A DNA stretch of 64,000 bases, from positions 1-64,000 of the IMG/VR virus record IMGVR_UViG_3300037809_000520; one strand, 5' to 3'. Made by a program: the position numbers and the translations under genes. Of this stretch, positions 8,310 through 38,702 are shown piece by piece. The notes beneath the pieces were generated by a model that did not search any database, was not told where the DNA came from, and worked only from the letters and a program-made list of their open reading frames with translations. The DNA comes from a virus. Within the stretch, counting starts at the first letter, position 1, and each line of letters starts with the position of its first letter.

Positions 8310-8336
8310 TTGAAAACTTTTTAATTAATATACAGG

Positions 8337-8345
8337 TATAAATAT
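8337..8345 (-). promoter_or_regulatory. Putative promoter box (GTATATTTATA)
   Basis: The plus strand reads TATAAATATAC here; the coding-strand box ends 27 bases before the start codon at 8309 and lies directly after the capsid gene terminator. Confidence 0.45.
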
Positions 8346-8375
8346 ACTAACTACTAACTAAGTATACACTAGTAG

Positions 8376-8403
8376 AAAAAAAAAGCCCCGCTAATGCGGG
8401 GCT
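8376..8403 (-). terminator. Intrinsic terminator after the major capsid gene
   Basis: The minus strand forms a perfect 8-base-pair stem AGCCCCGC / GCGGGGCT with an ATTA loop, followed by a run of about nine T residues. It ends the scaffold-capsid transcript. Confidence 0.93.
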
Positions 8404-8427
8404 CTTAATTTATTTAAAATCTATTGA

Positions 8428-17205: not shown

Positions 17206-17216
17206 TTTTATTTATT

Positions 17217-17225
17217 TATAAATAT
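17217..17225 (-). promoter_or_regulatory. Putative late promoter box (ATATTTATA)
   Basis: Located 11 bases upstream of the portal start and touching the terminase stop codon at 17225. Confidence 0.5.
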
Positions 17226-23216: not shown

Positions 23217-24089
23217 TTAATAATCCCATTCTTCATCATCTTCTTCATCATCATAACCATAATCATCATCATCATCATAATCTTCTTCATCTTCATACTC
23301 AGCATCATAATTAAACATATCCTCATCTGATTCAGTATAATTTCCATCTTTACTATCTATATAATCTAATATTTTTTCTAAAGCAAATTCAGTTAATCGT
23401 TCATATATTTTTTCTTCATCTCCTGAAGATGACATAATTTTACTAAAAATACTTTTTAATGTCGATTGTATTTCTGAAGGAATATCTGTTGAATTAATTA
23501 AAAATGAATGAGCAGGACCTGCTGTTTCAGTACCATATCCTTTATAATAGAAATCTCCATCATTATAATAACGATAAATAATTTTATTTATAGCTCTTAA
23601 TAATTCACCTTCAATTGTATCAGCATTACCTTGTCCAGGTACTAATTTTTCAAAGTAATCATTACTTCTTTTTTCTAATTCACCTCCAACCCATTCTTTA
23701 ATCTTTTTCTTTTTTGATATTGCTGTGTCTTTACACATCTCATCAAATTCAGGTCCGTCTTGAGAGCATGCCCATTTTCTTTGTTTTTCAGAGAAAACTT
23801 CTTTTAGTTTTTGATTTTCATTTAACTTAAACTGTTGTGTAAGTTTTTCCCAAGAATAGTTTTTATCAACCCACCCTTGTAATTTTTCTTCATCCCAATC
23901 TTTCTTAAATTTATTAGCATTATTAAGATCTGTTAAGATTTTTAATTTTTTAGCAGTACGTTCGTTCCACTCTTTATTTGATAATTCCTTTTCTGCTTTT
24001 CGACTTACATCTATGGCATCCCACCTTGATTCGGTTGATTCTGTTAATCTACCTTCTGCTAAATATTTTTTTAAATCGAAATTTTTCAT
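23217..24089 (-). CDS. Putative internal head protein with capsid-targeting tag
   Basis: A 290-residue protein. I chose the ATG at 24087-24089 rather than a longer open frame because it gives the shared tag MKNFDLKKYLAEGRLTES and because the extension overlaps the upstream gene. L-A-E (10-12) before Gly is a match to the T4 prohead protease site. The body is highly charged and helical; the last 45 residues are almost entirely Asp, Glu and Tyr (DYDDDDDYGYDDEEDDEEW). EEKLQGWVDKNYSWEKL is the clearest ordered part. Function unknown; I infer packaging into the head and ejection with the DNA. Confidence 0.65.
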   Translation of the reverse strand: MKNFDLKKYLAEGRLTESTESRWDAIDVSRKAEKELSNKEWNERTAKKLKILTDLNNANKFKKDWDEEKLQGWVDKNYSWEKLTQQFKLNENQKLKEVFSEKQRKWACSQDGPEFDEMCKDTAISKKKKIKEWVGGELEKRSNDYFEKLVPGQGNADTIEGELLRAINKIIYRYYNDGDFYYKGYGTETAGPAHSFLINSTDIPSEIQSTLKSIFSKIMSSSGDEEKIYERLTEFALEKILDYIDSKDGNYTESDEDMFNYDAEYEDEEDYDDDDDYGYDDEEDDEEWDY

Positions 24090-24099
24090 TTGTTTTATT

Positions 24100-24606
24100 T
24101 TACGGTGTAGTAGAATATATATATTCGTTAAATTGAAGATTGATATACTTGTCATATGGCATCGTACCCACATTATAAGCAAATTTATCTTTACCAATAG
24201 GAGCTTCATTTTTATTAATAAACCGTTTACGTTTTGTAACAAAATCTATTAAATATTGCTCTGGGTCTTCTTGTTTTTTTAATTGAGGGTGATTAGCTAA
24301 TATTGGTTTAATTCTTTTTACTATATCTTCTACCGAATCTCTTTCGTATGCCATTTCGGCTATATCTTCTTCTTTAATTACACCTTCAGATAAATCTATA
24401 TATGATTTCAAATCATCAAGTAAATCTTTATCTGTAGAGTTTTCATAGGCATCAGGTTCAAAATTTCCATCGAGTTCATCTATATAATCTTCAATATATT
24501 CATCCTCTATGCCTTTTTCTTTTCCTAATTTCCTAACTCTTGAAGCAATTTCATCTGCAGTTACACCTTCTGTAAGGAATTGTCTAAATCTGTATAGTTC
24601 TTTCAT
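24100..24606 (-). CDS. Putative internal head protein with tag variant
   Basis: A 168-residue acidic protein beginning MKELYRFRQFLTEGVTADE, a divergent version of the tag with cleavage-like L-T-E (11-13) before Gly. Most of the body is acidic and helical (residues about 25-110), followed by KKQEDPEQYLIDFVTKRKRF and a non-charged tail with several Tyr. No enzymatic motif. It lies 10 bases upstream of the gene starting at 24089 and 7 bases after the previous member of the array. Confidence 0.6.
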   Translation of the reverse strand: MKELYRFRQFLTEGVTADEIASRVRKLGKEKGIEDEYIEDYIDELDGNFEPDAYENSTDKDLLDDLKSYIDLSEGVIKEEDIAEMAYERDSVEDIVKRIKPILANHPQLKKQEDPEQYLIDFVTKRKRFINKNEAPIGKDKFAYNVGTMPYDKYINLQFNEYIYSTTP

Positions 24607-24613
24607 TTTATTT

Positions 24614-24964
24614 TTATATTATATCTTGTATTTTAGTATATTGATCTGCAGTTAGAACATCAAAAGTATAATCTTCAAAATCACCACCATCATAAAGTAT
24701 AGTTGATACTGCTCCAGCAATATCATTTCTTAATTCTTTTGAATCAGCATTTAAAGCTTTAACTGCCTTAACATAATCTTTAAATGTGTTCATAGCTTCA
24801 TCGGATACTTTTCCAAATTCAGCATCAACACCACCAGCATCAATTACATCATCATTTCCTACTTTAATTTCTCCTGCTGCCCATTCTGACCAGTAGTCTC
24901 TTAAATTATCTTCTTTTAGTAGCCTACCTTCAGCTAAATATTTTTTTAAATTGAAATTTTCCAT
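24614..24964 (-). CDS. Putative internal head protein with capsid-targeting tag
   Basis: A 116-residue protein; the ATG at 24962-24964 was chosen over a longer frame (start 24997) because it yields the common tag MENFNLKKYLAEGRLLKED and avoids overlap with the upstream gene. The L-A-E site (10-12) is followed by an acidic, helical body of about 95 residues with DAGGVDAEFGKVSDEAM and YDGGDFEDYTFDVL. No recognisable fold. Cleavage at L-A-E would release a protein of about 104 residues. Confidence 0.62.
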   Translation of the reverse strand: MENFNLKKYLAEGRLLKEDNLRDYWSEWAAGEIKVGNDDVIDAGGVDAEFGKVSDEAMNTFKDYVKAVKALNADSKELRNDIAGAVSTILYDGGDFEDYTFDVLTADQYTKIQDII

Positions 24965-24980
24965 TTTTATTTTATTTATT

Positions 24981-25382
24981 TTATCTCCAAAATTCACTTC
25001 CTTCTACCATCCAACGTTCAAAATCTTTATCAGAATGTACAAACTCTACACCTTTTGGATTTCCTATAAAGTAATCATCAAGCATTTGTTCTGTATCAAT
25101 TTCAAATCCTAAATACTCTGACATTTTATCTTCATTAGTTTCTAAAAATTTGTCTCCATTTTCGGATGTAAAGTCTTTTTTATCTTCTTCAACGTTTGCA
25201 GGATCAGTAAAATATCCATAGTTAATATAATCTATAAATTCTTCTTCTAATTTTTTTACATCAACATCCATGTATTTGGTATAACTAAAGAAATCAAGTA
25301 ATTCTTGTCCTCTTAGCTTAGTGATGTCTTCTTTTAATAGTTTACTTTCAGCTAAATACTTTTTTAAATTGAAATTTTCCAT
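24981..25382 (-). CDS. Putative internal head protein with capsid-targeting tag
   Basis: A 133-residue protein with tag MENFNLKKYLAESKLLKED, the L-A-E site being followed by Ser. The body is acidic (DVKKLEEEFIDYINYGYF, EEDKKDFTSENGDKF) and ends with an aromatic-rich segment (DFERWMVEGSEFWR). Unrelated in sequence to its neighbours past residue 20. It starts 11 bases after the preceding gene and is followed 16 bases later by the next start. Confidence 0.62.
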   Translation of the reverse strand: MENFNLKKYLAESKLLKEDITKLRGQELLDFFSYTKYMDVDVKKLEEEFIDYINYGYFTDPANVEEDKKDFTSENGDKFLETNEDKMSEYLGFEIDTEQMLDDYFIGNPKGVEFVHSDKDFERWMVEGSEFWR

Positions 25383-25393
25383 TTACTTTTATT

Positions 25394-25762
25394 TTAAAAG
25401 TTAAGTGCTATTTTTTTAGCTGTTTCTCCTTCTTCAGGGGTTATTAATCCTTGTTTAACATGAACATCAATAGCATCTAGAACAGACTCACGATCTGCTC
25501 CTGTTCCAACATCTAAATTTGCTTGTTTTACCCACTCGTCTTCTAAAGCCATGTAATCTTCAATAGACATTGTTTTAGGAGCGGGTAAAATATTACTTTT
25601 AATCCATCCAGCATCTTCTACATCAAAGCCAAAATCATCCGGTGAGGTAAGTACATCTTTAATGTAGTCATTACCACCAAACATAATAGTGGTGTCAACC
25701 ATTATCTCTTCTTTTAATAGTTTACTTTCAGCTAAATATTTTTTTAAGTCAAATTCTTTCAT
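25394..25762 (-). CDS. Putative internal head protein with capsid-targeting tag
   Basis: A 122-residue protein with tag MKEFDLKKYLAESKLLKEE and the L-A-E site at 10-12. The body differs from other members: TTIMFGGNDYIKDVL and an EF-hand-free acidic region, then EEGETAKKIALNF at the C-terminus. It contains both helical and beta-prone stretches and no Cys. No function can be assigned. Confidence 0.62.
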   Translation of the reverse strand: MKEFDLKKYLAESKLLKEEIMVDTTIMFGGNDYIKDVLTSPDDFGFDVEDAGWIKSNILPAPKTMSIEDYMALEDEWVKQANLDVGTGADRESVLDAIDVHVKQGLITPEEGETAKKIALNF

Positions 25763-25773
25763 TGTTATATTTT

Positions 25774-26295
25774 TTATATAAAATTAGATAAACCCCATTC
25801 CCCATCTCCTTCTGAGCTAGGCATATAATATTTTATTAGGGGTTTGAATATTTTCTCCATACCCGATTTTCTAACCTTAATAATTTCATCTTCGATTCTT
25901 GTTGATCTAATACTACTTATAAGCTTTTCAAATTCGGGTGTGATTTCATCCAATTTGAAGGTGAAAATAGCGTAATTCCCCATCATATCAACACCCGGTT
26001 GTTTCCTTCTTTCGTTTATGTATTTTCCTTTAAAAAAGGAATCACCTATTGTTTTTACAAATACATCTGTGGGTGTATCTTCATCACCAACAGATCCATT
26101 AACCCTTATAGCTGTTACACCCCCTATTGGTTTCTCCTCAAACACCCTTGATATTTCCTCTTTGATTATTTTACGTAGTTCCGATTTTTTCATTTTATTT
26201 GGTTTTATAAAATCTTTATACCTTCCTGTTTTAATTAAATGTTCTTCCAATAGAGGATTTTTTGATATAAATGTTTTTAAGTCAAAATCTTTCAT
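25774..26295 (-). CDS. Tagged protein with two different N-terminal tags in tandem
   Basis: A 173-residue protein. It begins with the first tag type (MKDFDLKTFISKNPLLEEHL) and then, at residue 35, carries the second tag type (MKKSELRKIIKEEISRVFEE) that starts other genes. The gene therefore looks like a fusion of two tagged openings, or the true start could be the internal Met at 26193. The body (about 55-173) has alternating beta strands (AIRVNGSVGDEDTPTDVFVK) and basic patches, with a folded-domain look, unlike the acidic members. Function unknown. Confidence 0.6.
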   Translation of the reverse strand: MKDFDLKTFISKNPLLEEHLIKTGRYKDFIKPNKMKKSELRKIIKEEISRVFEEKPIGGVTAIRVNGSVGDEDTPTDVFVKTIGDSFFKGKYINERRKQPGVDMMGNYAIFTFKLDEITPEFEKLISSIRSTRIEDEIIKVRKSGMEKIFKPLIKYYMPSSEGDGEWGLSNFI

Positions 26296-26315
26296 TTTTA
26301 TTTTATTGGTTTATT

Positions 26316-27347
26316 TTAATTAAATCTTCTGCTTATATTAGTTGCTTCACCAGCTACTACTTTACCATTTTGTAAAAGAACAACTCCATTAGCTGAATCA
26401 CCATCAGCTTCTGAATTGTTAATAAGTCTATTTAGTTCTTCATAATACATATCCAAATTATCTTCTATGTGTTTATTAAAGACACTTTCCCAATTATCTC
26501 CAGCTGCATCTAATTCATCTGTAAGTCCAAATTTTCTTTCAAAGTGTTCGATATCCCAATAACTTTTAATAGAATCTTTTATATATTCTTCTTTACTATC
26601 ATAAACAATATAATCAGGACCTTCATCATTCCAAAATATCATGTGGTACATTCCTGGTTTAAGGTCAATCATATATTCATCACTAAATTGTTCTTCTTCA
26701 GAAGAAGCATCATGTTCAGCTCTATTTCCTATATAAAGTTCTTGATAATCATCATGGCTAAGTATTGTAGCCATATCTATATCTTCTTTTAATAGCTTAC
26801 CTTCAGCTAAACCTGATAGTTTATCTTTAGCCCATTCTTTAGCCAATTTTACGGCTTCATCTTTAGAATAAAATCCTTGTTCTACAGCATTCATTATCTC
26901 ATAATAGTCATCGCTTACAATTTCTTCAGCAGATGCATCTATAATACCCTGAAGATATACTTCAGGTTCTACTACCATAGCACCCATTGCACCTTCAAAT
27001 TCATCTTCCATTTCTGGGAAGTCTATAGCTTCATTTAATAGCTTACCTTCAGCTAAATATTTTTTTAAATCGAAATTTTCCATTTGGGTTTGTTTTATAT
27101 TATGTAATTTATCATACCATGCTTTATATTCGGGATCTCTAAGAAGATTAGCTGTAACCATATCTGACATTGCATCAAATCCACCATTATCAAAACGATC
27201 TAGTTCATACTGAGCATCATCTGGGTCTTTAACGTATTTCATGATAATATCAAGTAACGCATCCATACTTTCATCATCAAAGACTGTAGGTTCGTTTTCA
27301 AATAGCTTACCTTCAGCTAAATATTTTTTTAAATCGAAATCTTTCAT
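26316..27347 (-). CDS. Fusion of two or three tagged internal head proteins
   Basis: A 343-residue protein. It starts MKDFDLKKYLAEGKLFENE, but a second complete tag, MENFDLKKYLAEGKLLNEA, begins at residue 89 (27083), and a third partial copy, LAEGKLLKEDI, at about residue 179 (near 26812). Just before the second tag the text HNIKQTQ looks like a translated intergenic gap. Each tag would be a prohead protease site, so the product may be cut into three pieces of about 75-160 residues. Bodies are acidic and unrelated. An alternative is separate genes with internal starts. Confidence 0.62.
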   Translation of the reverse strand: MKDFDLKKYLAEGKLFENEPTVFDDESMDALLDIIMKYVKDPDDAQYELDRFDNGGFDAMSDMVTANLLRDPEYKAWYDKLHNIKQTQMENFDLKKYLAEGKLLNEAIDFPEMEDEFEGAMGAMVVEPEVYLQGIIDASAEEIVSDDYYEIMNAVEQGFYSKDEAVKLAKEWAKDKLSGLAEGKLLKEDIDMATILSHDDYQELYIGNRAEHDASSEEEQFSDEYMIDLKPGMYHMIFWNDEGPDYIVYDSKEEYIKDSIKSYWDIEHFERKFGLTDELDAAGDNWESVFNKHIEDNLDMYYEELNRLINNSEADGDSANGVVLLQNGKVVAGEATNISRRFN

Positions 27348-27424
27348 TTTATTTTATTAGTTTATTATACATATGTCAATTTATTCAAAATATTACATCC
27401 GCATTTACACATATCTTATTTTAT

Positions 27425-27433
27425 TATAAATAT
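27425..27433 (-). promoter_or_regulatory. Putative late promoter box (ATATTTATA)
   Basis: Directly after the stop codon of the gene ending at 27434 and 77 bases before the first tagged gene at 27347; it may drive the main array. Confidence 0.4.
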
Positions 27434-29017
27434 TTATAATTTTTTTGCTTTTGATATTTCTATCGTATTTTGCTCTCCACCATTACTTCTAGCTGATATT
27501 TTTAGTTGGTATTGAGATATTCTATCATCACCTACCATTATATTTACAGTCATATCAATAATTAAAGAACCATTTTTATTACCATCATATATTTTGATTT
27601 TTGTTCCTGGGGTTAATTTAGCTGTTGCTCCCGCTGGGAATTTTTCTGGTGTATCGGCAGTTGATCCATCAGTTTTTCCTATTAATTTAAAATATGTTGG
27701 GTTAACACCTGAAATAGACATACCATAAGCTGCCATTTTAACAAGTGCTGTAACTGGGTTTGTTTCTCCAGCCTTATCTTTAAACCAAGTTATTAAATAA
27801 TCTAAAGCTTTATAAGCAGCTAATTTAAATTTTTTCTGTTGTATTGTTGGTGGGTTTTCTCCTGCTTTAAAATCAATAAATTCTTGATTACCAAGTTTAC
27901 CCATTACAGTACTTTTATAAGAACCCAATGCAGTATCAAAATCATACCCATCTTGCATTTCATCTTTACTTAAGCCATATATTGGGGGAAGTGGTTTGTT
28001 ATCTCCATCTGCGGGTAGTAAATCAGGATTTAAATTTTTAAGAAACCCTTTTGCTTTACCACCTTGTGCATTTTGTTGTTTTAATGATACTGCGACAAAT
28101 TCAGCATCCGTTTCTCCCCATTGACCTTCAAATAATTCATTAAGTTTACCCCAAGGCATAGCATCTGTTTCTAATTTTTTTACATCAAACCCTGGTTTGA
28201 GTTCTACATAAATATCTCCTGGGTTCCATTTATCTTTATCTATACCTGTTGCTGCCGCACCTGCTGATCTTATCTTTTCAAAAGCTCCATCTCGGATTAA
28301 ATCATAACTACCATAATCTGCGTGTAATCTTTTTGCTGATGAAAGTGGATCATTTAATGCCGCTAAAGCAGCTAAACTTGAATTTGCATTTTCTCCCTTT
28401 AATATAGGTAATTTTTTATTAACTTCTTTTTTTGAGGTGTCATCCATACCTTTAGTATTAATTGGTAAGGAATTTAAAAGTTCATAATAATTTTCTGATG
28501 TGAATGGGTCTTTTTTTTTATTCCAATCATCTTTTAACGCATTAAAAAATAAAATTACTAATCCTTCTTTAACATTTGTATTTGTACTAAATTTACTTCC
28601 AGCACCTTTAATAACAAATATTTCTCCATCTTCTGTTTCTAAATAAAACGCACCTTTATTTGATGTTACCTTACCTGGTGGTAATGCTCCTTTTTTAACT
28701 AGATCATCAGTTAAATCTTTTCTAAGCCCTCTACCTTTTTCACTTACATCTTTTAAATAAATCCAAGTACCTTTTGGAGTACCAACACCTGTTTTCTTTG
28801 TTTGGATTGCTTCTACTTCATAACCATCTAAAGCATTTATTCTTGATTTTAAATCCAATAAATCTTCTGGTAGGCCTTCTGAATCTTCAAATTCCATAAC
28901 GACTAATTGTTCCAATAATGTTTCTAGTAATAAAACATCCTGATCATTATTCATGTCAGGATATCCTTTAGGAAATTTATATGCTATTTTATTTAAAAAT
29001 TTATCTATTACATCCAT
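27434..29017 (-). CDS. Unknown protein, possible nuclease-like fold
   Basis: A 527-residue protein without the N-terminal tag. The centre (about 265-345) has DIYVELKPGFDVKK, then LNELFEG, a D/E residue (AEFVAVSLKQQNAQGGKAKG), an arrangement of acidic residue then beta strand with Lys that recalls PD-(D/E)XK nucleases, but the match is weak. An N-terminal helical region with FEDSEGLPEDLLDLKSRI and a C-terminal beta region precede and follow. It has a second-class promoter box upstream (29040-29049). Function not known; head packaging is possible from location only. Confidence 0.55.
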   Translation of the reverse strand: MDVIDKFLNKIAYKFPKGYPDMNNDQDVLLLETLLEQLVVMEFEDSEGLPEDLLDLKSRINALDGYEVEAIQTKKTGVGTPKGTWIYLKDVSEKGRGLRKDLTDDLVKKGALPPGKVTSNKGAFYLETEDGEIFVIKGAGSKFSTNTNVKEGLVILFFNALKDDWNKKKDPFTSENYYELLNSLPINTKGMDDTSKKEVNKKLPILKGENANSSLAALAALNDPLSSAKRLHADYGSYDLIRDGAFEKIRSAGAAATGIDKDKWNPGDIYVELKPGFDVKKLETDAMPWGKLNELFEGQWGETDAEFVAVSLKQQNAQGGKAKGFLKNLNPDLLPADGDNKPLPPIYGLSKDEMQDGYDFDTALGSYKSTVMGKLGNQEFIDFKAGENPPTIQQKKFKLAAYKALDYLITWFKDKAGETNPVTALVKMAAYGMSISGVNPTYFKLIGKTDGSTADTPEKFPAGATAKLTPGTKIKIYDGNKNGSLIIDMTVNIMVGDDRISQYQLKISARSNGGEQNTIEISKAKKL

Positions 29018-29039
29018 CTAATGATAGTATTTTGATTTG

Positions 29040-29049
29040 TAAATATACG
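29040..29049 (-). promoter_or_regulatory. Putative promoter box, second class (CGTATATTTA)
   Basis: Ends 22 bases before the start at 29017; TCGTATATTTACA on the coding strand. Confidence 0.4.
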
Positions 29050-29085
29050 ACTCTTGTTTTAGGGAGCCACGTAATTTATATTATT

Positions 29086-30156
29086 CTACCAAGCTTTACA
29101 AGACCAATATCTGGCCTTAGTTTTAGGTCCTGGGGTATCACATTTATGTCTTTTTGCAAATGCAGCACGGGCTTTGGAGTCATTTATTTTTGCTCTTAAA
29201 CCACCAGATCCAAATCTAACGGTTTTAATTTTCTTGGTTTTAGGATCCTTAACGTATACTTTATATGCTTTTCCACCGGATGTATCACGCATTGGTTTTC
29301 CTATTGGTCTATTGTCTTTTTTCTTAGCTTTTTTCTTTTTAGCTTCATCTAAGCTGCCAGCTTGTAATCTAACAAACCCATTATCTTTTAACCACTTAGC
29401 TGCTTCTTTAGCATTAGAAGCTTCTCCATCAAAATCATCAGTTTGGAAATAATAACCCTCTGGTGTCTTATAAACATCTACCATACCATCAGGACCATCA
29501 AAAATTGCAATGTGGTTTGAAGAATTAAAAGTTCCTTCATTCATAGACATATTATCTATTTCATCATGAACCCATTCTTTTTCATTGTCACCTAATTGGT
29601 CATAATCCATTCCAAATTCCATATTTGCTAACTCGTCTTCAAGATCCATTTGCTCATTTAATTCAATAGGAAAATCTAATGGTACTTTTTTATTTTCAGC
29701 TAATTCAAATTTATCGAATTTATTTAAATCATTTAAAGATTTTAATTCAACTCTTTTACCATCACTACCTAATCCATAAACTGTAGCATCATATTTACCA
29801 AACCCATCTGAGCGTACTCCTTTAAGTTTTTGTTTTAATTCTGCTCCTGCTCTACGCTTACTTACTGTTGATGTTTGTTCTAATAAACCAAAATGGCCTA
29901 AATTAGTTTCTGTAAGTAAAGCTAAATCATCTTTATTAGTAAATTCTAAAATACCTCTACTATATAAAGATCTTGCTTCTGCAAATAATTTAAAATAATC
30001 ACGTGAACCAATGCTGCATAAATGCTTAATAAGCGGTTTATTATTGTCTATATGATATCTTAAATCCCTAGACAACATAGCCCTTGGAGCTTTGCTCTCA
30101 TTAAGTACTAACGCAGTACTTTTAGTCTTACACGTATTACATCCACAGTTACACAT
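29086..30156 (-). CDS. Multi-part acidic protein with conserved C-terminal basic domain
   Basis: A 356-residue protein. The N-terminus is Cys-rich (MCNCGCNTCKTKST), then VLNESK (a candidate L-N-E cleavage site at about 17-20). The middle is acidic and Met-rich; around 205-250 is IAIFDGPDGMVDVYKTPEG, a small beta domain. The C-terminal 75 residues are basic: KKIKTVRFGSGGLRAKI, RAAFAKRHKC and TKARYWSCKAW. This end recalls a domain I have seen in T4-like marine phages. Two Cys and one Trp pair suggest a metal or disulfide site. Possibly a head protein binding DNA. Confidence 0.62.
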   Translation of the reverse strand: MCNCGCNTCKTKSTALVLNESKAPRAMLSRDLRYHIDNNKPLIKHLCSIGSRDYFKLFAEARSLYSRGILEFTNKDDLALLTETNLGHFGLLEQTSTVSKRRAGAELKQKLKGVRSDGFGKYDATVYGLGSDGKRVELKSLNDLNKFDKFELAENKKVPLDFPIELNEQMDLEDELANMEFGMDYDQLGDNEKEWVHDEIDNMSMNEGTFNSSNHIAIFDGPDGMVDVYKTPEGYYFQTDDFDGEASNAKEAAKWLKDNGFVRLQAGSLDEAKKKKAKKKDNRPIGKPMRDTSGGKAYKVYVKDPKTKKIKTVRFGSGGLRAKINDSKARAAFAKRHKCDTPGPKTKARYWSCKAW

Positions 30157-30181
30157 ATTATTTCATTTTATTTTTTAACCC

Positions 30182-30634: not shown

Positions 30635-30635
30635 A

Positions 30636-32717
30636 TTATTTTTGTTTTGCTGTTGGACCTTTACCTCCGCCTTTTGCTTTATATGATGCTACTGCACCTG
30701 CAATTGCTTTTGCTGCTTTTTCGGATTTACCTGATTTTTTACCTTTTACTGGTTTACTTTCATTCATTGAATTATTCAACATTTCATTCTGAGCTTTGTT
30801 TTGTGATTCACCTATGTTTGGATATTTACCAATTACGGGTTTTTTAGAATTCAATGATTTCTTGGCAAACTTCATCCATGTAGTATAATCCTCTTTACTA
30901 CCAAAATCGTCTGCATTTACTGATTTGAAAAACCTCGTATCAATATAAATTATTGCAAATTCTTCACCGTTACCACCATTTCCATCTACACCAATGTAAT
31001 CCGTTTCATCTTCCAATGTGTATCCAAATAATTCATCATTTTTAAGTTGAGTTGCTTTTTGAACTGCCTGTTTGAATGATGGGTAGTTTGCAACATCATC
31101 ATGTCCATGTTTTACACCGTGATATTCAACATTATAATGTGATTTTCTACTCTTTACAGGTTTACTCTCATTCATTCTACCATCTTGATCTTCATCCTTA
31201 GCATCAATTTTTTTATCCCAAAATCCTTTAGGTAAACCTTCTTTTAAATCTTTAGCTAATTTTTCTGCTATTGTACTATATTTAGATGGTTTATTTTCAT
31301 TTACTGCTGCACCTTCAAAATATTCAGCAGGACCTATTTTCATTTTACTTTTATCAGTAACACCGGTGTCAAACCAAGCTTTAATAGCATTATCAACATT
31401 TTGACCACCTAAGAAATAGCTTAGTAGACTTTCTAATCCTTTAGCTCCATCATCTACAAAATCATCAAATTGTTCTTCGGTATCAAATTCCATTTTGTCA
31501 TCTGATGTAAATAAATAAGTTGGTTTATTTTGTAAATTAGACATAGCAAAGGGCATTCCACTACCTTCGTGGTTTCCAAAATAAGATTCTTTAAGGGATA
31601 CAATATCTTTTGATGGTGTTTCTTTATATTTGAAATAAATAGCATATCTTTTTTTATTGCCATTATAGTCTTCTAAATATACTATTTTTTTAGCAAATGC
31701 TTTTCCGTTGTAGGCACGGCGCCATTTATTCATGTTCATAGTTTCGTTTATTGGTTTTTGGTTTTCTTCAAACGCCCCCGAAGCATATTCTCTTCCTACG
31801 GAAACATCACCTAATTCATTTGGGGTATATAATGACGCTTGAAATCCAGTATCGTCATCTGTACCTAATTGGCCAGTTTCTTCAGCTACTGCTTGATCAT
31901 ATGTCATTTCTTTTCTTCCTCTTAACTTATCTAATTGTTTATCAATTTTATTAAGCATATAACCATACTCATCTGCAATTGGTCCTCCTTCTGGCTCTGC
32001 TTCTTGTTCCATATCCATTAATAATTCTTCTCTTTTAGCTAACAATAAACCTATATGATAGGAATTATCTTTTGGTTTTTTAGGAGATTTTTTTGATTTA
32101 ATTTTAGATTTTTCTTTCATTGCAGCCTCAAATTCTTTTCTATCTTTAGCCATTTGTCTCATTACACGAACTCTAACATTGAAAGGATCATTTATATCTG
32201 TGTCTTCACCTAATGGCTCTGAAAATTTAGAACTAATAGGTTCGTCATTTAAAAATGGGTCATCTGCTACTATATCAATATGGTCTCTTATCATTGAATC
32301 TAAATATAAATTAGCATCATCTGTAGATAATGCTTTCATTAGGGACTGAATAATATAATCATCATCACCAATAGCATCTCTAAGTCTATCTAATTTACCC
32401 CATGCTTTTTCATCTAAAGTTTCTTTTAGATTTTTTTCAATAGCAGATCCCCTAGTTTTTTCATAATCTGATAGCTTACCATCCTTATTTAAATCGGCTT
32501 TTTTAGGATTTTTTAAAGCATCTTTAATCAACTCAGTTAGTTTAGGGTCTCTCATTTCTTTAGTTTGTTTTTTTGCCATATTAGTAGCACGCCCATACAT
32601 AACTGCCTCTGCATCTTTACCATATTTCTTAACAAGGTCACGTTTGTTACCTTTCATATTCATGATAATATCTTCCCTTTTTTTAAGTTCTGACTTAGAC
32701 AGCTTACGTTCGTTCAT
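30636..32717 (-). CDS. Large tagged-region protein with EF-hand loops
   Basis: A 693-residue protein, Lys/Asp-rich, from a start at 32715-32717. Residues 75-86 (DLNKDGKLSDYE) form a complete EF-hand calcium loop, with a second, looser one near 508-519 (DEDQDGRMNESK). Several repeats of the form NESKPVK / NENKPSK lie at junctions and may be cleavage sites for the prohead protease. Between them are acidic helical parts and compact beta regions (AFAKKIVYLEDYNGNKKR, EEFAIIYIDTRFF). The C-terminus is basic. A polyprotein of several small packaged domains is a reasonable reading. Confidence 0.6.
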   Translation of the reverse strand: MNERKLSKSELKKREDIIMNMKGNKRDLVKKYGKDAEAVMYGRATNMAKKQTKEMRDPKLTELIKDALKNPKKADLNKDGKLSDYEKTRGSAIEKNLKETLDEKAWGKLDRLRDAIGDDDYIIQSLMKALSTDDANLYLDSMIRDHIDIVADDPFLNDEPISSKFSEPLGEDTDINDPFNVRVRVMRQMAKDRKEFEAAMKEKSKIKSKKSPKKPKDNSYHIGLLLAKREELLMDMEQEAEPEGGPIADEYGYMLNKIDKQLDKLRGRKEMTYDQAVAEETGQLGTDDDTGFQASLYTPNELGDVSVGREYASGAFEENQKPINETMNMNKWRRAYNGKAFAKKIVYLEDYNGNKKRYAIYFKYKETPSKDIVSLKESYFGNHEGSGMPFAMSNLQNKPTYLFTSDDKMEFDTEEQFDDFVDDGAKGLESLLSYFLGGQNVDNAIKAWFDTGVTDKSKMKIGPAEYFEGAAVNENKPSKYSTIAEKLAKDLKEGLPKGFWDKKIDAKDEDQDGRMNESKPVKSRKSHYNVEYHGVKHGHDDVANYPSFKQAVQKATQLKNDELFGYTLEDETDYIGVDGNGGNGEEFAIIYIDTRFFKSVNADDFGSKEDYTTWMKFAKKSLNSKKPVIGKYPNIGESQNKAQNEMLNNSMNESKPVKGKKSGKSEKAAKAIAGAVASYKAKGGGKGPTAKQK

Positions 32718-32719
32718 TC

Positions 32720-32875
32720 TTACTTATGGTTTCTTTTGAAATCAGCAGAAAAGTTTTTAATCTTATTAGCAGCAGATCTACATCTACCTTTGGCAGCAGC
32801 GCTTGTTTTTTCAATTTCTGCTTCAATTAATAATACTTGTTCTTTGATTCCTTCTAATAATTCTTTTGTATCCAT
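32720..32875 (-). CDS. Small histone H1-like (Hc1-type) protein
   Basis: A 51-residue protein, shorter than the usual gene-calling limit. It begins MDTKELLEGIKEQVLLIEAE, then KTSAAAKGRCRSAANKIK and a basic end FSADFKRNHK. This layout, a short acidic helix then an Ala/Lys/Arg helix with basic tail, resembles the small Bacteroidetes Hc1-type histone-like proteins. It might coat or compact DNA in the head. It stops 2 bases upstream of the next gene start. Confidence 0.5.
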   Translation of the reverse strand: MDTKELLEGIKEQVLLIEAEIEKTSAAAKGRCRSAANKIKNFSADFKRNHK

Positions 32876-32911
32876 TTTTATAAATTTTATTGGTTAATAA
32901 CTAGTTTTTAT

Positions 32912-33796
32912 TTATTTTATCAATCCTGCTAATTTTGGAAATCTAGATAATGATTCATCTAACGCAAATCCAATTTCAGCATCTTCAGCTGGATTGTCTT
33001 TTGTTACATTAACTATACTATCAGAGTCAACTTCATCACCACCAGAACCAACGAATCTTTCAGGATCCATTCCTTGTTCTTCATTAGTAGCTACAACGTG
33101 TGCTCTAGTATAATAAGTAATTGTATTTCCTATTTGATCAAGTAACTTTTCATCACCCAGAGATTTTGCCTCTTCTTGAGCTTTAGTTAAAAGACCTAAT
33201 ATAGCTGCTACATCCGAAGACTCACCTGCTAGTTCAGAATCAACTTCAATTTCTGATTTTGAAGATTCATCATCAATATCAACTTCGTCTTCAATGTCGA
33301 TGTCAATGTCTTCATTGTCTTCAACATCTACTTCTTCAGCTTCAGTTAAATTCCACCATTCAGGTTTAGAATCACCGGATGCAAATTCATCTTCTAAATG
33401 ATCTAAAAAATCTTCTCTTGAAGAGGTTTCAAATTCATAATCATCTTTATCATCATATCTATTTGGGAAGTAATCGTCTGCCCAATCTTTAATAACATCC
33501 ATTGGTACATCCATTTTGTAGTACCTTTTCATATCACCTTTGATTTCTGGGTACATATCATCACCTTCAAAATTCAATAGTTCTTCTTTAATAACATCAT
33601 CCTTAAAATCCTTTTTAAGTTTAGCTAATTTTTCTTCGTTGTCTTTAATATCTTTTTCAAGATTTTTTATGTGGTCTCTATCATCACGAATAGCACCTTC
33701 CATACGTTTTTGTTCTTCACTGTTTCCTTTTTTAGAATCTTCAGCTTCAGATAAAAACTGACTCTTGATGATTTCTTTTAATTCCGATTTTTTCAT
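32912..33796 (-). CDS. Acidic tagged protein, putative internal head protein
   Basis: A 294-residue protein starting MKKSELKEIIKSQFLSEAE, the second tag type, with L-S-E (15-17) before Ala, much like the T4 internal-protein cleavage site. It is strongly acidic: residues about 150-200 are almost all Asp, Glu, Val and Ile (VDVEDNEDIDIDIEDEVDID). The C-terminus returns to a capsid-scaffold type ending (LSRFPKLAGLIK), identical in style to that of the gp22-like scaffold (FKKLAGII). It may be a second core protein. A promoter box lies 33 bases upstream. Confidence 0.65.
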   Translation of the reverse strand: MKKSELKEIIKSQFLSEAEDSKKGNSEEQKRMEGAIRDDRDHIKNLEKDIKDNEEKLAKLKKDFKDDVIKEELLNFEGDDMYPEIKGDMKRYYKMDVPMDVIKDWADDYFPNRYDDKDDYEFETSSREDFLDHLEDEFASGDSKPEWWNLTEAEEVDVEDNEDIDIDIEDEVDIDDESSKSEIEVDSELAGESSDVAAILGLLTKAQEEAKSLGDEKLLDQIGNTITYYTRAHVVATNEEQGMDPERFVGSGGDEVDSDSIVNVTKDNPAEDAEIGFALDESLSRFPKLAGLIK

Positions 33797-33828
33797 TATA
33801 TTTGTATTTTTCTGTTGATTAATTTTAT

Positions 33829-33837
33829 TATAAATAT
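33829..33837 (-). promoter_or_regulatory. Putative late promoter box (ATATTTATA)
   Basis: Ends 32 bases before the start at 33796, in a 98-base gap downstream of the broken gene at 33895-34538. Confidence 0.45.
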
Positions 33838-33894
33838 GTTAGGATTTTTCCTTATTGATATTTTTTGCCGGATTTAATGGCTGATTTATATGTT

Positions 33895-34121
33895 TTATCT
33901 TTCCTTTTTTCTTTTTAAGTCTTCTAAGTATTCAATTTGTTTACGAGTTAATTTATTATAATCAAATACTTCTCTATCTTCTTTTAAATCTTTAGCTGAT
34001 TTATATAGTGAAAGTAGTCTTTTAAGTTCTTTCTGTACTAACATTTCTGTTTCACTAGTTAAAGGTTCACCATTAGCTTCACCACTATCTAATATTTCTT
34101 CTGCATCTTTGATTTGTTTTT
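33895..34121 (-). pseudogene. 3' part of the tagged gene, cut off by a frameshift
   Basis: After the 5-A run at 34117-34121 (minus strand) the frame that matches the upstream part continues for about 72 codons: IKDAEEILDSGEANGEPL through to RKQIEYLEDLKRKKER, then TAA at 33895-33897. It is acidic and helical and joins smoothly to MSKAGIK if one A is added to the run. I therefore read 33895-34538 as one gene interrupted here by a one-base deletion or sequencing error. Confidence 0.6.
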
Positions 34122-34538
34122 AATACCTGCTTTACTCATCCCTTCGTTGATAGGAAAATCTTCTACATTAAATTGAAATTTTATTTTTGGGTACCATGCT
34201 CTATCTCCATCATATTCCATTTCATACCAATTAGATTCTGATTCTATATCAAATCCTTTATCTTCTACCCACTTTAATGCTTTATTCCAATCATTAGGTA
34301 AAAGTTCATCTTTAATATTAAAACTAATAGAACCATATCCCTTACCTTTTAAAGGGTCTGTATCTGGTCTATCACCACTATACATTCCTAATGAAATGCT
34401 AGGATTATAATCATTAAATTGAGAATCTAATTCTTTTCTTAATTCTATTTCTCGAGATTTATATTCTCCATATTCGTCTATTTGACTCTCCTTAAGATAG
34501 CGGTTTCTATTCCACTTAGTGATATTAAAATTATCCAT
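34089..34538 (-). CDS. 5' part of a frameshifted tagged gene
   Basis: A 149-residue open frame starting MDNFNITKWNRNRYLKESQI; L-K-E (15-17) before Ser is a candidate prohead protease site. The body has LRKELDSQFNDYNPSISLG, a Gly/Asp-rich turn and a beta region (FDIESESNWYEMEYDGDRAW). Its last 12 residues, after MSKAGIK at about 134-140, are probably out of frame; correcting one A in 34117-34121 would extend it by about 72 residues to 33895. It has a promoter box 10 bases upstream. Confidence 0.6.
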   Translation of the reverse strand: MDNFNITKWNRNRYLKESQIDEYGEYKSREIELRKELDSQFNDYNPSISLGMYSGDRPDTDPLKGKGYGSISFNIKDELLPNDWNKALKWVEDKGFDIESESNWYEMEYDGDRAWYPKIKFQFNVEDFPINEGMSKAGIKNKSKMQKKY

Positions 34539-34548
34539 TAGTTTTAGT

Positions 34549-34557
34549 TATAAATAT
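34549..34557 (-). promoter_or_regulatory. Putative late promoter box (ATATTTATA)
   Basis: Ends 10 bases before the start at 34538, the tightest spacing but one in the set. Confidence 0.5.
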
Positions 34558-34568
34558 ATAAAAATATG

Positions 34569-35144
34569 TTATCTTTTAAGACTATTTAAATGTTCAATAG
34601 TTTTATTTAAACCCTCTAATACTCTTACTTTATCAGGAGCACCTACCCAATTTTCTACATCTCCCTGTTCTGTAATAAAACCTTTATTAGATAATAATAA
34701 TTCTGCTTCTATATAAGCTTTAAACTCATTTGCAAAATTATCTATTTCTGAATTAATAATTTTAGATTCATAAGCTTCATACAATCCTGCTACTTTTAAA
34801 TGGTGTTCAAATTCAACAACACAATTAAAACATTTTTTATGGATATTATAATAAGGTTTATCTAAATCAGTATGCATTTTTGATTTACAGTTAGGGCAAA
34901 AAATAGGCATTATGTGTGCTTTTTTTGCTTTATCTAATTTAGTAATATTTTGTTTTATTCCTTCTTTAATAGTCCAAGTACGACCATCAGTTTCCCAAAC
35001 ATCACCTTCTTTATATTCCTTTTCATGTTTGGCGTAACCCACACTTTGTCCTATTTTTTCACCATGCTTACCTTGAATAAGGTTACGCATTCTATTTACG
35101 TCTTTTTCTGTAAATTGTTTATTTAATCCTTGTACCTTACTCAT
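34569..35144 (-). CDS. Zinc-ribbon protein, unknown function
   Basis: A 191-residue protein with a four-Cys zinc ribbon: FCPNCKSKM at about 92-100 and KKCFNCVVEF at about 113-122. Before it is a short basic domain (RMRNLIQGKHGEKIGQSVG), after it a helical domain of about 70 residues. The layout suggests a nucleic-acid or protein binding adaptor. It overlaps the upstream gene by 4 bases. A similar zinc-ribbon protein is known in other T4-like phages, but I cannot name the family. Confidence 0.65.
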   Translation of the reverse strand: MSKVQGLNKQFTEKDVNRMRNLIQGKHGEKIGQSVGYAKHEKEYKEGDVWETDGRTWTIKEGIKQNITKLDKAKKAHIMPIFCPNCKSKMHTDLDKPYYNIHKKCFNCVVEFEHHLKVAGLYEAYESKIINSEIDNFANEFKAYIEAELLLSNKGFITEQGDVENWVGAPDKVRVLEGLNKTIEHLNSLKR

Positions 35145-35353
35145 AAAACTAATTTATTTAATTCTTTAATAATAACTTGTATATCATCTTTTGATAAATT
35201 ACCACCACTATACCATTGTTTTATTTGGTTTGCTAATAAATTAACATCTACTTTTATAGGCAAATCATTGGGGGTAGTAATTAGTGGGTTAGTACTTCTG
35301 GACCTTAATGATCCTTCTTTATATCCTTTTGATAAAGTATTTGATTTATTCAT
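35141..35353 (-). CDS. Small protein, unknown function
   Basis: A 70-residue protein lying between the multi-enzyme gene and the zinc-ribbon gene; its start overlaps the upstream stop by 4 bases (35350-35353) and its stop overlaps the next start by 4 bases. RSRSTNPLITTPNDLPIKVD is a likely flexible linker; DDIQVIIKELNKLVL is a C-terminal helix. The double overlap argues that it is real and translated with its neighbours. Confidence 0.55.
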   Translation of the reverse strand: MNKSNTLSKGYKEGSLRSRSTNPLITTPNDLPIKVDVNLLANQIKQWYSGGNLSKDDIQVIIKELNKLVL

Positions 35354-37908
35354 AATCCTAATGCTTTAAGTTGGTTGATTGTATCCTGGGTTGATGTATG
35401 TAATATACCAATACCCCCAGCTTCAATCCATTGTTCTATATTTGATTTTCTATCATCAATTAAAATATGGTTAGGTTCAGCATAATTCTTTTTATTATAA
35501 GCTTGGGCTAATGTTAATTTAACTCCAGGCATGTTATTTCTAACCCATAATCTTTTTCCTAATCTTGAGGTTTGTGATCTTGATGGGGATGATAGTAATT
35601 CTACATCATAATCTTTAATATAATTCCAATAGTCTTTACCATCTTCCATCCAAGGCATCCCTACCCAAAATCCAACTTTACCTTTACCATCAATTAATTC
35701 CCAAAATCCATCTTCCCCAAACTTTTTTTCATATTCTCTGGGTGGTATTCCTTTAGAGTACTTTTCAAATGATTTATCAAAATCTGTTAATACACCATCC
35801 ATATCTGAATATATTTTATATTCCATAGGGGGTGAAGATACAACCTCTTCTTCAGGTATCAAAACTCCTTCAGCAATTTCTCTAGCAAATTGATTTAAAC
35901 CAAATGGATCTTTACCTAATTTGGGATCAAATCCCTGTTTTTCATCTAAACTATCAGTCCAATTTCTAAATGTCATTGTACCTTTTAAATTAGCTTCAGC
36001 TTCAATATCATTTAACTCATCATCTTCTTGAGTATTTGTTGTTGTAATATTACCTAATCTACCTTCTAGATTTTGGGTATGATGAACCATTTCATGGGAA
36101 AATGAACGTACAATATCTTTTGGATGTCTGCCTTCAGTGTATAATACAATTGTTTGAGAATTTGGATCATAATAAGCAGTTTTACCTAAAAACTCTTGAG
36201 CATTACTACGATCACCATTTATGAATTTTAAATTAGGTAAGGGTTGAATATTCATCCCCTTATCTATCATATGCTTAGTTAATTTAGCTATCTCTTTTTT
36301 AATATCTATATTTTGAGAATATGAAGCATTTTCATTTAATGGTTTTCCTCTTTTAGAATATCTTCCTTCTACTTCAAAATTATTACTTAATGTAGACAAT
36401 ACCTCTTGTGTTTTTTGGGTTTCTCTATATAATCCCCCTGTCCAGTGATCTTTAACTGTTGAAAAACCCCAAGGCCCTCCTGCTTCTTTAATTTTATTCT
36501 CAACCCACCCACTTAAATCATAATAATTAGATTTTTGTTTAATTATAACAAATGTTTCTCCTTTTTCAAGTAAATCCTGGTCTGTTAATTGATCCATAAA
36601 ATTTTTTGCTCCCTCTAAAGTTTTTGAAAATGAGATATTTTTTCCATTATAATTTGTCCAAATATATTCTCTTAAATCTGGGATTTTGGTTGCATTCTTA
36701 ATGGATAAAATTCTATATATTGTTCCAAAATCTTTATAGCCTAATTGTTTTAATTTTAAAACAAATACTCTATTAATTGAAGAACTATCATGTACTCCTC
36801 CTTTTCCTAACCAATCTTCAACATATTTATCTAAATCTATTTCTTCATTTAAGTTTTCTTTTAAAACTGTTCCTTCAGGAAGTTCTAATGAATCAAAAAA
36901 ATCTTGAGCTATTTTTAATAGTTTTTCTTTTATTTCTGGTTTTAAATTAAGATCATCCCAAACATCTTTTACTAATGTATCTTGTATATCAAAACTATCG
37001 ATTACATCTTTTTCAATATTTTCTTGAAGAGCGATTACAGGGGTAGATGTTTTAAAATCTTTTTTACGCATTACTGTTTTTGCATACATTTCAATATCAT
37101 CATCAGTAACATTTATAGCAAATGGTATGTTTATGTTATTATTAAAATCCTTAACAACAGCATCAAAATCATCATCTATTTTAGATAGTGGTTTACCATG
37201 TTTTTTATGTAAACGTTTAAACATCCCTATAAGTTCAGCTACTGTAATTGGTTTTTTATTTCTTTTATCATTTAATCTATCTAAAAAATGCCTAGTAAAT
37301 TCAATATCAATACCCAATTTATTAAATAATCCATCAGCATATTTTTCAATTGAGTCTAATTGGGGTTTAGTAATTTCTTCTTTAATAATTGGTCTTAGAA
37401 TATTAAATACATCTTCTTTTTCTTTATCATCTAATTCATCTGGTAGGAATGGTGCTAATTCATCGGATGATACTTTGGCTGCTTTTCTAGCATTGGTACC
37501 ACTCATACCTTTATCTTGAGTAATTTGTACTTTTACTTTCATATTAGGGTAAGCTGATTCTATATTTTTAGTTCTATTTTCAATATCTTCTAAATCATCA
37601 TCTCTTCCTTCTCTTCCTCCTATAATAAAATAAACCTCATCTTCAGGATTATTTTTCCCTAAACGAATAATATCACCAATTGGTGATTCAGCAGGCTCAA
37701 TCTTAACTTTCATGGGTAAATATTTTTTAAATATATCCCAAATTAAAATAGCTTCAGCTTGACTTACCCCATTTCTTTCCTTACTTCCAACATAGATAAT
37801 AAATTCATCTATTTCAGGGAGAGATTTTAATGCTTTTTTTACTACCTCTAAATGACCTTTAGTAGGTGGTTTAAAACCACCTCCGTATGCTGCTATTACT
37901 TTACTCAT
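35350..37908 (-). CDS. Multi-enzyme protein: nucleotidyltransferase, ART-like, zinc peptidase-like, HAD phosphatase
   Basis: An 852-residue protein with several domains. (1) Residues 1-145: nucleotidyltransferase of the NMN adenylyltransferase / cytidylyltransferase type, with GGFKPPTKGHLEVVKKAL (T/H-x-G-H motif ending at His19) and the second motif GMSGTNARKAA (134-144). (2) About 385-510: IYRILSIK (Arg399), NISFSKT (Ser426-Phe-Ser) and RETQKTQEVL (Glu502), the R-S-E order of an ADP-ribosyltransferase, though the Q/E-x-E element is imperfect. (3) FSHEMVHHTQ (603-612): H-E-x-x-H zinc peptidase signature, with EAEAN downstream as a third-ligand candidate. (4) About 697-852: HAD phosphatase with SDMDGVLTDF (701-710). 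N-rich, L-N-E type junctions (PLNENAS, ENLNEEI) could be protease cut sites. The gene overlaps both neighbours by 4 bases. Confidence 0.72.
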   Translation of the reverse strand: MSKVIAAYGGGFKPPTKGHLEVVKKALKSLPEIDEFIIYVGSKERNGVSQAEAILIWDIFKKYLPMKVKIEPAESPIGDIIRLGKNNPEDEVYFIIGGREGRDDDLEDIENRTKNIESAYPNMKVKVQITQDKGMSGTNARKAAKVSSDELAPFLPDELDDKEKEDVFNILRPIIKEEITKPQLDSIEKYADGLFNKLGIDIEFTRHFLDRLNDKRNKKPITVAELIGMFKRLHKKHGKPLSKIDDDFDAVVKDFNNNINIPFAINVTDDDIEMYAKTVMRKKDFKTSTPVIALQENIEKDVIDSFDIQDTLVKDVWDDLNLKPEIKEKLLKIAQDFFDSLELPEGTVLKENLNEEIDLDKYVEDWLGKGGVHDSSSINRVFVLKLKQLGYKDFGTIYRILSIKNATKIPDLREYIWTNYNGKNISFSKTLEGAKNFMDQLTDQDLLEKGETFVIIKQKSNYYDLSGWVENKIKEAGGPWGFSTVKDHWTGGLYRETQKTQEVLSTLSNNFEVEGRYSKRGKPLNENASYSQNIDIKKEIAKLTKHMIDKGMNIQPLPNLKFINGDRSNAQEFLGKTAYYDPNSQTIVLYTEGRHPKDIVRSFSHEMVHHTQNLEGRLGNITTTNTQEDDELNDIEAEANLKGTMTFRNWTDSLDEKQGFDPKLGKDPFGLNQFAREIAEGVLIPEEEVVSSPPMEYKIYSDMDGVLTDFDKSFEKYSKGIPPREYEKKFGEDGFWELIDGKGKVGFWVGMPWMEDGKDYWNYIKDYDVELLSSPSRSQTSRLGKRLWVRNNMPGVKLTLAQAYNKKNYAEPNHILIDDRKSNIEQWIEAGGIGILHTSTQDTINQLKALGL

Positions 37909-38702
37909 GAATTTAAGAATTTTTCTATTCTCATTTGTGCCTCTTCTTTAGACATAGTATATTCAATTACATCATATATAAAATCATCACTTAACATAGT
38001 TTGAATTTCTTCTTTATCTTTAGCTTTTCTTTCATCAGATCGTTTTTGTTGAGCCGGTGTTTTAGGTTTAGTTCCTGTTGGTTTAAAGGGAGTTAGATAT
38101 TTTTTAATAATTTTTTCTATATCTTCCATTCTATTATCTAATGTATTAGCTACTGCTATGAAATTATTACCAAATAAATCAGCATATTTAGGTAAATTAT
38201 CTGTTACATCTTTCCAAGTACGCATCACAATAGCAGGTGCTAAACTCCTATCTTTACCTTCTGATTTTTCATATCTATCTTGATTTTGAGTTAATGAACG
38301 TTCTAAATCAGTATAAACATAAAGCATCATTACTTTATATCCCGCTTCTTCTAATTCATTTTTTAATTTTGCTGTTTGATTATATGAAGCTCCTGTACCA
38401 TCTAAAATAAATGATTCTTTTCCTTCAATAGTAGCTTCTACATCACCCTTAAATTGTTTATTAGCAGCTGCCATTTGTTTAGCTTGCTCACTTCTTTCTT
38501 CAGGAGTAGCATTTTTTAAATCTAAAGTTACATTAGCTTTTTGCAACATTGGAACATAGATATCATCTACATTTAATATCTTTAAACCCGCTAAATCTAA
38601 ACCACGTAAAATATACCCTTTACCTGCTCCTGGAGCTCCTGCTAATATAATTGCTTTAGGTTCAGCAACTGCTTCTTTTAATAATTGAATTAATGAAATC
38701 AT
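37905..38702 (-). CDS. P-loop kinase, polynucleotide kinase/zeta-toxin-like
   Basis: A 265-residue P-loop protein. Walker A is LAGAPGAGKGYILRGL (20-35), with ILNVDDIYVP as the substrate-binding Asp region and FILDGTGASY as the next conserved segment. The arrangement fits polynucleotide-kinase or zeta-toxin-like kinases that phosphorylate a small substrate or a nucleic acid end. It starts MISLIQLLKEAVAE, where L-K-E (8-10) before Ala resembles the capsid-targeting tags. C-terminal Lys-rich region, about 205-265. It overlaps the multi-enzyme gene by 4 bases. Confidence 0.72.
   Translation of the reverse strand: MISLIQLLKEAVAEPKAIILAGAPGAGKGYILRGLDLAGLKILNVDDIYVPMLQKANVTLDLKNATPEERSEQAKQMAAANKQFKGDVEATIEGKESFILDGTGASYNQTAKLKNELEEAGYKVMMLYVYTDLERSLTQNQDRYEKSEGKDRSLAPAIVMRTWKDVTDNLPKYADLFGNNFIAVANTLDNRMEDIEKIIKKYLTPFKPTGTKPKTPAQQKRSDERKAKDKEEIQTMLSDDFIYDVIEYTMSKEEAQMRIEKFLNS

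Follow-up and report, generated by a model that had tools for sequence, protein, structure and literature searches.

What does a short N-terminal peptide do for proteins that otherwise have nothing in common? The question is raised by a 64,000-nucleotide stretch of viral DNA (the window; positions 1 to 64,000 of IMG/VR record IMGVR_UViG_3300037809_000520, a 67,258-base fragment of 31% G+C), in which genes at 23.2-34.5 kb open with MxNF(D/N)LKKYLAEG-type N-termini or variants of these and continue into unrelated bodies. T-even phages inject internal proteins that are specific inhibitors of host restriction enzymes, and a handful of these are known. The injected internal proteins of T4 have only a packaging leader in common, and IPI, IPII and IPIII inhibit three different GmrSD restriction enzymes, one each (PMC12373910, PMC9391042, PMC3012670); the T4 capsid-targeting sequence is treated by Mullaney and Black 1996, cited in PMC9391042. 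A sequence-only reading of the window had proposed one large array of capsid-targeted proteins, trimmed by a gp21-like protease, packaged in the head and injected as candidate anti-defence or takeover effectors. The analyses below place this array within a larger system that has four or more tag types, and the tags are likely to target proteins to the capsid in the manner of the T4 internal-protein leaders and to be cut by the phage's own protease, a conclusion reached from sequence alone.

A T4-related phage with a gp21-type head module

The fragment is a T4-related myovirus close to Flavobacterium phage immuto. Its closest cultured relatives by terminase and capsid protein are immuto (~59% identity) and Microcystis phage Mel-JY01 (~52%), and a megablast search of 20 kb of the window against 50,697 phage records gave no match. 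The head module lies on the minus strand, as do the tagged genes described below, and encodes an S77/gp21 protease, a gp23 capsid protein, a scaffold, a portal and a terminase. The gp21-like protease claimed at 11451 held, and is a gp21-type prohead protease (11451..12053; Pfam Peptidase_S77, E 1.6e-29; PHROG head maturation protease, E 3.8e-59). The gp23-type major capsid protein (8428..10071; PHROG E 6e-72) has N-terminal sites LLE↓S and GLLE↓G (arrows mark predicted cuts) that are conserved in its homologues. The predicted prohead scaffold, at the gp22 position (10115..11260), and a predicted prohead core protein with the N-terminal site HIFLKE↓V (12062..13231) are both rich in L-x-E.

Three further observations concern this module and its relatives. 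Portal C-termini (15301-17205 in the window, and homologues) read SLLDE(S/N)(Q/K)(I/L)(R/K)E, a double L-x-E reminiscent of the tag's second half. Two records have a divided large terminase gene, interrupted by an insert within one 922-residue open frame in G003 (6297-9038; an intein candidate) and spread across two frames in G014 (15982-18729; an intron or insertion candidate). Annotated QueC/D/E/F, FolE and DpdA genes in immuto (MW353175.1, 18.6-37.0 kb) suggest 7-deazaguanine-modified DNA, and modification-dependent restriction could therefore be a target of injected proteins.

Tagged genes of the window

Six M(K/E)xF(D/N)LKKYLAE(G/S)-type tag copies occur in five genes at 23217-27347, one gene having two copies, and variant tags begin genes 24100, 25774 and 34089. 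The claim of near-identical N-termini followed by divergent bodies held: every quoted peptide was found on the minus strand, and the system is larger than claimed. Two gene starts were corrected, that of the first gene from 24242 to 24089 (51 codons of the listed open reading frame precede the tag ATG) and that of the gene at 24614 to the ATG at 24964.

The first tagged cargo (23217..24089; 290 aa) reads MKNFDLKKYLAE↓GRLTE↓STES, with a predicted mature N-terminus at Ser18. Its body family is tagged too in loci L098, L131, L133, L138 and L145; a scan for more relatives returned two copies identical to it, a distant homologue and a match confined to the tag, and its predicted structure had a mean pLDDT of 55.5, too low to interpret. 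It is followed by a 168-aa cargo (24100..24606) with a T4-form tag, MKELYRFRQFLTE↓G; a 116-aa cargo (24614..24964; MENFNLKKYLAE↓GRLLKE↓DNLR) with tagged homologues in L083 and L021; a 133-aa cargo (24981..25382; MENFNLKKYLAE↓SKLLKE↓DITK) that has no clear homologue beyond the tag; and a 122-aa cargo (25394..25762; MKEFDLKKYLAE↓SKLLKE↓EIMV). The gene at 25774..26295 encodes tandem tags, a degenerate first copy MKDFDLKTFISKNPLLEE (FDLKTFISKNPLLEE) and then an internal MKKSELK-type copy MKKSELRKIIKEEISRVFEE (MKKSELRKIIKEEI). Farther along are a cargo with the variant tag MDNFNITKWNRNRYLKE↓S (34089..34538; tagged homologues in L107, L168 and L233), a cargo or core protein that combines the N-terminal tag MKKSELKEIIKSQFLSE↓A with a scaffold-type C-terminus (32912..33796), and a zeta-toxin-like P-loop kinase with the short tag MISLIQLLKE↓A (37905..38702; Pfam Zeta_toxin, E 1.5e-17). 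The main tag is absent from genes 27434, 29086, 30182, 30636, 34569 and 35350 within this span.

The MKKSELK type, reported as a second tag at four sites, held at 19380, at 32912 and internally in 25774, and failed at 56072, which reads MKSSQLK. The protein at 19380..19745 (ILELLE↓AES) adjoins the terminase throughout the clade, a conserved arrangement; the one at 56072..56419 (EILLE↓A) is distant from the array and of lower confidence. As a separate observation, A-rich runs (AAAATAAA), mostly without an obvious Shine-Dalgarno sequence, precede the start codons of tagged genes (for example, at 24965-24995), which would fit a Bacteroidota host.

The tag is under selection and ends at a second L-x-E

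Without their tags, 173 tagged proteins from the loci fetched fall into 96 body families, 68 of them singletons. An alignment of one protein per family gives the consensus MxNFDLKKYLAEGKLxxE with almost no conservation after it, information content being 1.2-5 bits at tag positions -3 to 14 and 0.1-0.5 bits from 15 onward (logo positions 0-8 are biased by the search pattern; position 9 onward is unbiased). Conservation ends just past a second L-x-E, which lies within 13 residues of the first in 153 of 167 tags, compared with 18% of comparable deeper windows of the same proteins, and tags without the first L-x-E generally retain one nearby (FDLKKYLAKNKLNEE, FDLKKYLSNNPLLLEAE). The final mature N-terminus is therefore predicted after the second L-x-E, at about residue 18-19, and the earlier prediction of Gly13 or Ser13 held only in part.

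The tag peptide is under selection across unrelated cargo, with pS of 0.55 and pN of 0.20 between tags, compared with pS of 0.58 and pN of 0.69 at codons 20-40 past the tag's Phe. The peptide is thus preserved although its synonymous sites have diverged as far as those of unrelated sequence, which argues against simple recent copying.

Cargo bodies are depleted in the protease motif

Relative to shuffled sequences, (L/I)-x-E occurs in cargo bodies at a ratio of 0.71 (95% interval 0.60-0.82), compared with 1.00 (0.91-1.08) in 347 short acidic control genes from the same phages. Neither (L/I)-x-D nor E-x-(L/I) is depleted in these bodies; (L/I)-x-x-E is mildly depleted too, and no depletion is seen when a small residue is required after the E as well. 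The motif is enriched 1.6- to 2.2-fold in scaffold, core protein and protease (1.6-1.9 in scaffold and core) and stands at 0.89 of expectation in the portal, a protein that escapes processing in T4 (PMC5694885). A scaffold or core protein of the T4 gp22, gp67 and gp68 kind is expected to have many internal (L/I)-x-E sites and to be degraded on maturation, a criterion that the cargo, with its depleted motif, fails.

Cargo bodies are acidic, with a median net charge of -8 per 100 aa, and are nearly all of unrecognized type. A Pfam match of known function was obtained for one of 96 family representatives (the zeta-toxin-like kinase), and one more matches DUF5872; no cargo family matched known anti-restriction families in Pfam or PHROGs, and the cargo of the window itself gave nothing above threshold against either collection, only weak matches. 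One family has a GNAT-like fold as predicted by model (mean pLDDT 87.7, tag poorly ordered; Foldseek match E 4.7e-5, TM-score ~0.5).

Tags are exchangeable, and one is shared with the scaffold

The same cargo bears different tags in different phages, nearly all with L-x-E. Among homologues without the main tag, 62 of 69 have (L/I)-x-E starting at residues 7-21, compared with 9 of 66 windows taken from within these proteins and with 35% of other genes, the motif being common in acidic helical proteins. For example, the tag of the zeta-toxin-like kinase in the window is replaced by MDNFNLKKYLTEGSLLKE↓A in L258 (70% identity over 250 residues) and by MNDFDFKKYLAEGRLLKE↓A in the relative L049, and members of the GNAT-like family begin with MDNFDLKKYLAEGRLFEE, MTFDYRAYLKNNPLLEE, MGNFNITKFFRDQYLAEG or MIKLVDILLEE. 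Another cargo starts with MKELYKFRQYLAEGKLYEA in L042 and MDNFDLRKYLAEGKLYEA in L056, the T4-type form of 24100 replacing the main tag. This MKEL form, which also begins window gene 24100, resembles the T4 tag MKTYQEFIAE↓A, the N-terminus of ipIII in the T4 record. The pattern (F/Y)xx(F/Y)(I/L)xE is 5-fold enriched at N-termini, many of the matches being main-tag variants. The comparison with T4 tags that had been proposed as a check thus gave a divided answer, with T4-form tags on 24100 and its relatives and a main tag that fits only in outline; the latter match is short (hydrophobic-x-x-aromatic-(L/I)-A-E), and convergence remains possible.

A third tag, RMQxLAG(I/V)ITE, is found also at the extreme C-terminus of the scaffold. 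Copies of (L/F)xRMQxLAG(I/V) and close forms number 63 in 2,777 proteins, compared with 0.7 in shuffles. The extreme scaffold C-terminus accounts for 31; the 32 in other proteins include 21 at the N-terminus, where ITE(S/G), with its I-x-E site, usually comes next, and 6 at the very C-terminal end. The window's scaffold has the C-terminal sequence ARFKKLAGII (its motif RFKKLAGII, at 10118..10147, recurs at the termini of other proteins), and the product of gene 32912 terminates in SRFPKLAGLIK. Our hypothesis, an inference from these sequences, is that RMQxLAG-type proteins enter the prohead via the contact made by the scaffold C-terminus. A separate proposal, that the main tag is a copy of the scaffold N-terminus (LLKEAIADA resembling LKKYLAEGK), was not supported by tag-profile scoring, in which genuine scaffold N-termini ranked from the top 9% to below the median of genes.

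Some cargo is encoded as polyproteins

Gene 26316..27347 encodes a 343-aa polyprotein in which the full tag is present twice, at residues 1 and 89 (ATGs at 27347 and 27083; the second copy, 27030..27083, reads MENFDLKKYLAEGKLLNE↓A). A third, internal remnant, the LAEGKLLKE linker at residue 180 (26784..26810), has lost the targeting half and retained the double L-x-E. Similar internal linkers, again reduced to the double L-x-E, occur in L064, L124 and L145, suggesting that joined cargo is cut by the same protease. In gene 35350, IAE↓G directly precedes a nucleotidase domain, and relatives encode the nucleotidase in a separate gene, whose product has an N-terminal L-x-E of its own.

The whole 852-aa product of 35350-37908 has an NMN-adenylyltransferase-like start, a HEMVH (zinc-peptidase-like) motif and a C-terminal 5'-deoxyribonucleotidase domain, an architecture in the style of polyvalent proteins. 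Two other long proteins, encoded at 30636-32717 and 29086-30156, contain recurring (M/L/V)NESK(P/A) peptides, possibly more protease sites between units.

Distribution of the tag and co-occurrence with the protease

A degenerate DNA pattern for F(D/N)LKKYLAE matched at least 120 viral stretches (a lower bound, the scan having stopped at its limit), compared with 0 for the reversed peptide at equal degeneracy; chance is therefore excluded. Bacterial and archaeal genomes totalling 257 Gb yielded only 7 matching stretches; 5 belong to unrelated cellular genes, and the 2 that read as tags come from short MAG contigs of 5.7 and 14 kb. Single contigs have up to five or six tagged genes. The tag-bearing phages are a little-known aquatic group. 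Literature searches for the tag sequence, immuto proteomics and capsid targeting in metagenomes found nothing on the clade and no virion proteomics for any member. The same tags are borne by immuto, which is in culture with its host Flavobacterium sp. LMO8, so decisive proteomics is feasible. The predicted cuts in immuto proteins are KILKE↓NSNT (immuto26A_195), LLKE↓GSDY (_194), FLKE↓STIQ (_202), IITE↓SQFN (_188) and ILSE↓KKAD (_187).

No tag-bearing record that extends sufficiently beyond the terminase lacks the gp21 protease. Among 22 large records chosen by tag alone, 13 contain a terminase, and 11 of these encode the S77 protease; the contigs of the other 2 end ~2.6 and 3.5 kb past the terminase, and in relatives the protease lies ~5 kb past it. 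The remaining 9 records have no terminase match and, apart from G003-like exceptions, no protease either, and are read as fragments.

A model for packaging and processing

In the proposed mechanism, an N-terminal peptide (consensus MxNFDLKKYLAEGKLxKE, or one of at least three other exchangeable forms) would draw unrelated cargo into the prohead core, where the gp21-type protease would cut after L-x-E, at YLAE↓G and LLKE↓x. Trimmed cargo would stay folded within the head and would presumably be ejected into the host together with the DNA; by analogy with T4 IPI-III, some of it may then act against host defence or in takeover. The confidence expressed above covers targeting and cleavage only. 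These two steps, claimed at the outset by analogy with T4, are now supported by several sequence tests that could have failed (the protease family, the second L-x-E, motif depletion in cargo, tag exchange and co-occurrence with the protease), to which the shared tag, its sharp end and selection on the peptide are added as features established directly from the sequences. Presence in the virion, actual cleavage, ejection and function after ejection are all inferred from sequence alone: packaging in the head is strongly indicated and not shown, and injection and anti-defence activity, as first proposed, are inferences still. On analogy only, we favour by a small margin a role in defence inhibition or takeover for the cargo taken together.

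A bolder reading, in which three parts must hold jointly, is slightly more likely to fail than to stand. Its parts are a modular code of at least four exchangeable tag types; entry through RMQxLAG(I/V)ITE↓S/G, which would copy the extreme scaffold C-terminus so that cargo rides in on the scaffold's own assembly contact; and polyprotein cargo that would be separated in the head by the prohead protease.

Alternative explanations

The alternative that survives best, though unlikely, is that the tagged proteins are prohead core components, like T4 gp67, gp68 and gp22, that are degraded by the protease at maturation and never delivered. In its favour, the cargo has L-x-E sites like scaffold and core proteins, is encoded near head genes and is acidic like the scaffold. 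However, (L/I)-x-E is enriched in scaffold, core and protease but depleted in cargo bodies, which fits survival rather than digestion; the cargo includes a kinase family and a protein of GNAT-like predicted fold; and 96 unrelated families are too variable for a structural core role.

A second alternative, which we consider very unlikely, is that the tag sends proteins elsewhere (baseplate, membrane or replication centre) and that L-x-E merely marks the end of a helix. The MKSSQLK protein at 56072 does sit among tail and baseplate genes, and a short amphipathic helix could bind membrane, but the prohead and its protease are indicated instead by motif depletion in the cargo, by the double L-x-E linkers and by a tag type that recurs at the scaffold C-terminus.

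The weakest, that the shared N-termini are functionless residue of recent duplication or of recombination copying 5' ends, can draw on the DNA likeness of tags within one phage, the tandem genes and the existence of fused genes, but is all but excluded and was rejected, given a pS in tags (0.55) near that of unrelated codons (0.58) with nonsynonymous positions conserved, unrelated bodies, and the same cargo under different tags.

Comparison with known systems

Targeting to the prohead and cleavage by its protease thus remain the preferred reading, and the tag is valuable mainly as a sequence barcode by which candidate injected phage proteins can be recognized. Being diagnostic and apparently cleavable, it allows candidate injected effectors to be catalogued straight from metagenomes; in this single uncultured clade it labels 96 cargo families, almost none of which has a known domain. 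A concrete, testable idea for the targeting mechanism comes from the scaffold-type tag.

Two other systems bear on the comparison. In the giant phages SPN3US and phiKZ (PMC5694885), as predicted here, a prohead protease strips N-terminal propeptides from inner-head and ejection proteins, and two paralogues have an identical 15-residue N-terminus. Unlike in the present clade, several of those propeptides exceed 100 residues and cleavage follows A-x-E or S-x-E; the relevant sections of that paper describe no set of unrelated cargo arrayed under one tag. The 35350 protein, with its NMN-adenylyltransferase-like and nucleotidase domains, resembles the polyvalent proteins known from phages and conjugative elements (Iyer et al., PMC5512222), multidomain polypeptides for which head packaging and processing have been proposed. 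Unlike those, most cargo in the clade is small and single, each with its own tag, and a separate prohead protease would process it.

The closest parallel is T4. As in IPI, IPII and IPIII, a short N-terminal peptide ending in (L/I)-x-E stands on otherwise unrelated proteins, the phage has a gp21/S77 protease and a gp23-type head, and one tag form (MKELYRFRQFLTE↓G) is close to that of T4 ipIII. Unlike in T4, the clade's main tag is longer (~18 residues) and has two L-x-E sites; several tag types are exchangeable, one being common to the scaffold C-terminus; and some cargo is encoded as polyproteins with internal tags. The cargo is also acidic, whereas T4 internal proteins are reported to contact DNA via lysines (PMC3012670), and the sampled clade has 96 families, compared with at least 10 reported cargo families in T-even phages. 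On the sequence evidence the system works as T4 internal proteins do; membership of the T4 type is not established, because virion presence, cleavage and injection rest on inference. What is new relative to T4 is therefore a longer tag with two sites, the variety of exchangeable tags (one of them also found on the scaffold), the polyprotein cargo, the acidity of the cargo and how many families it comprises, in a kind of system that was already known.
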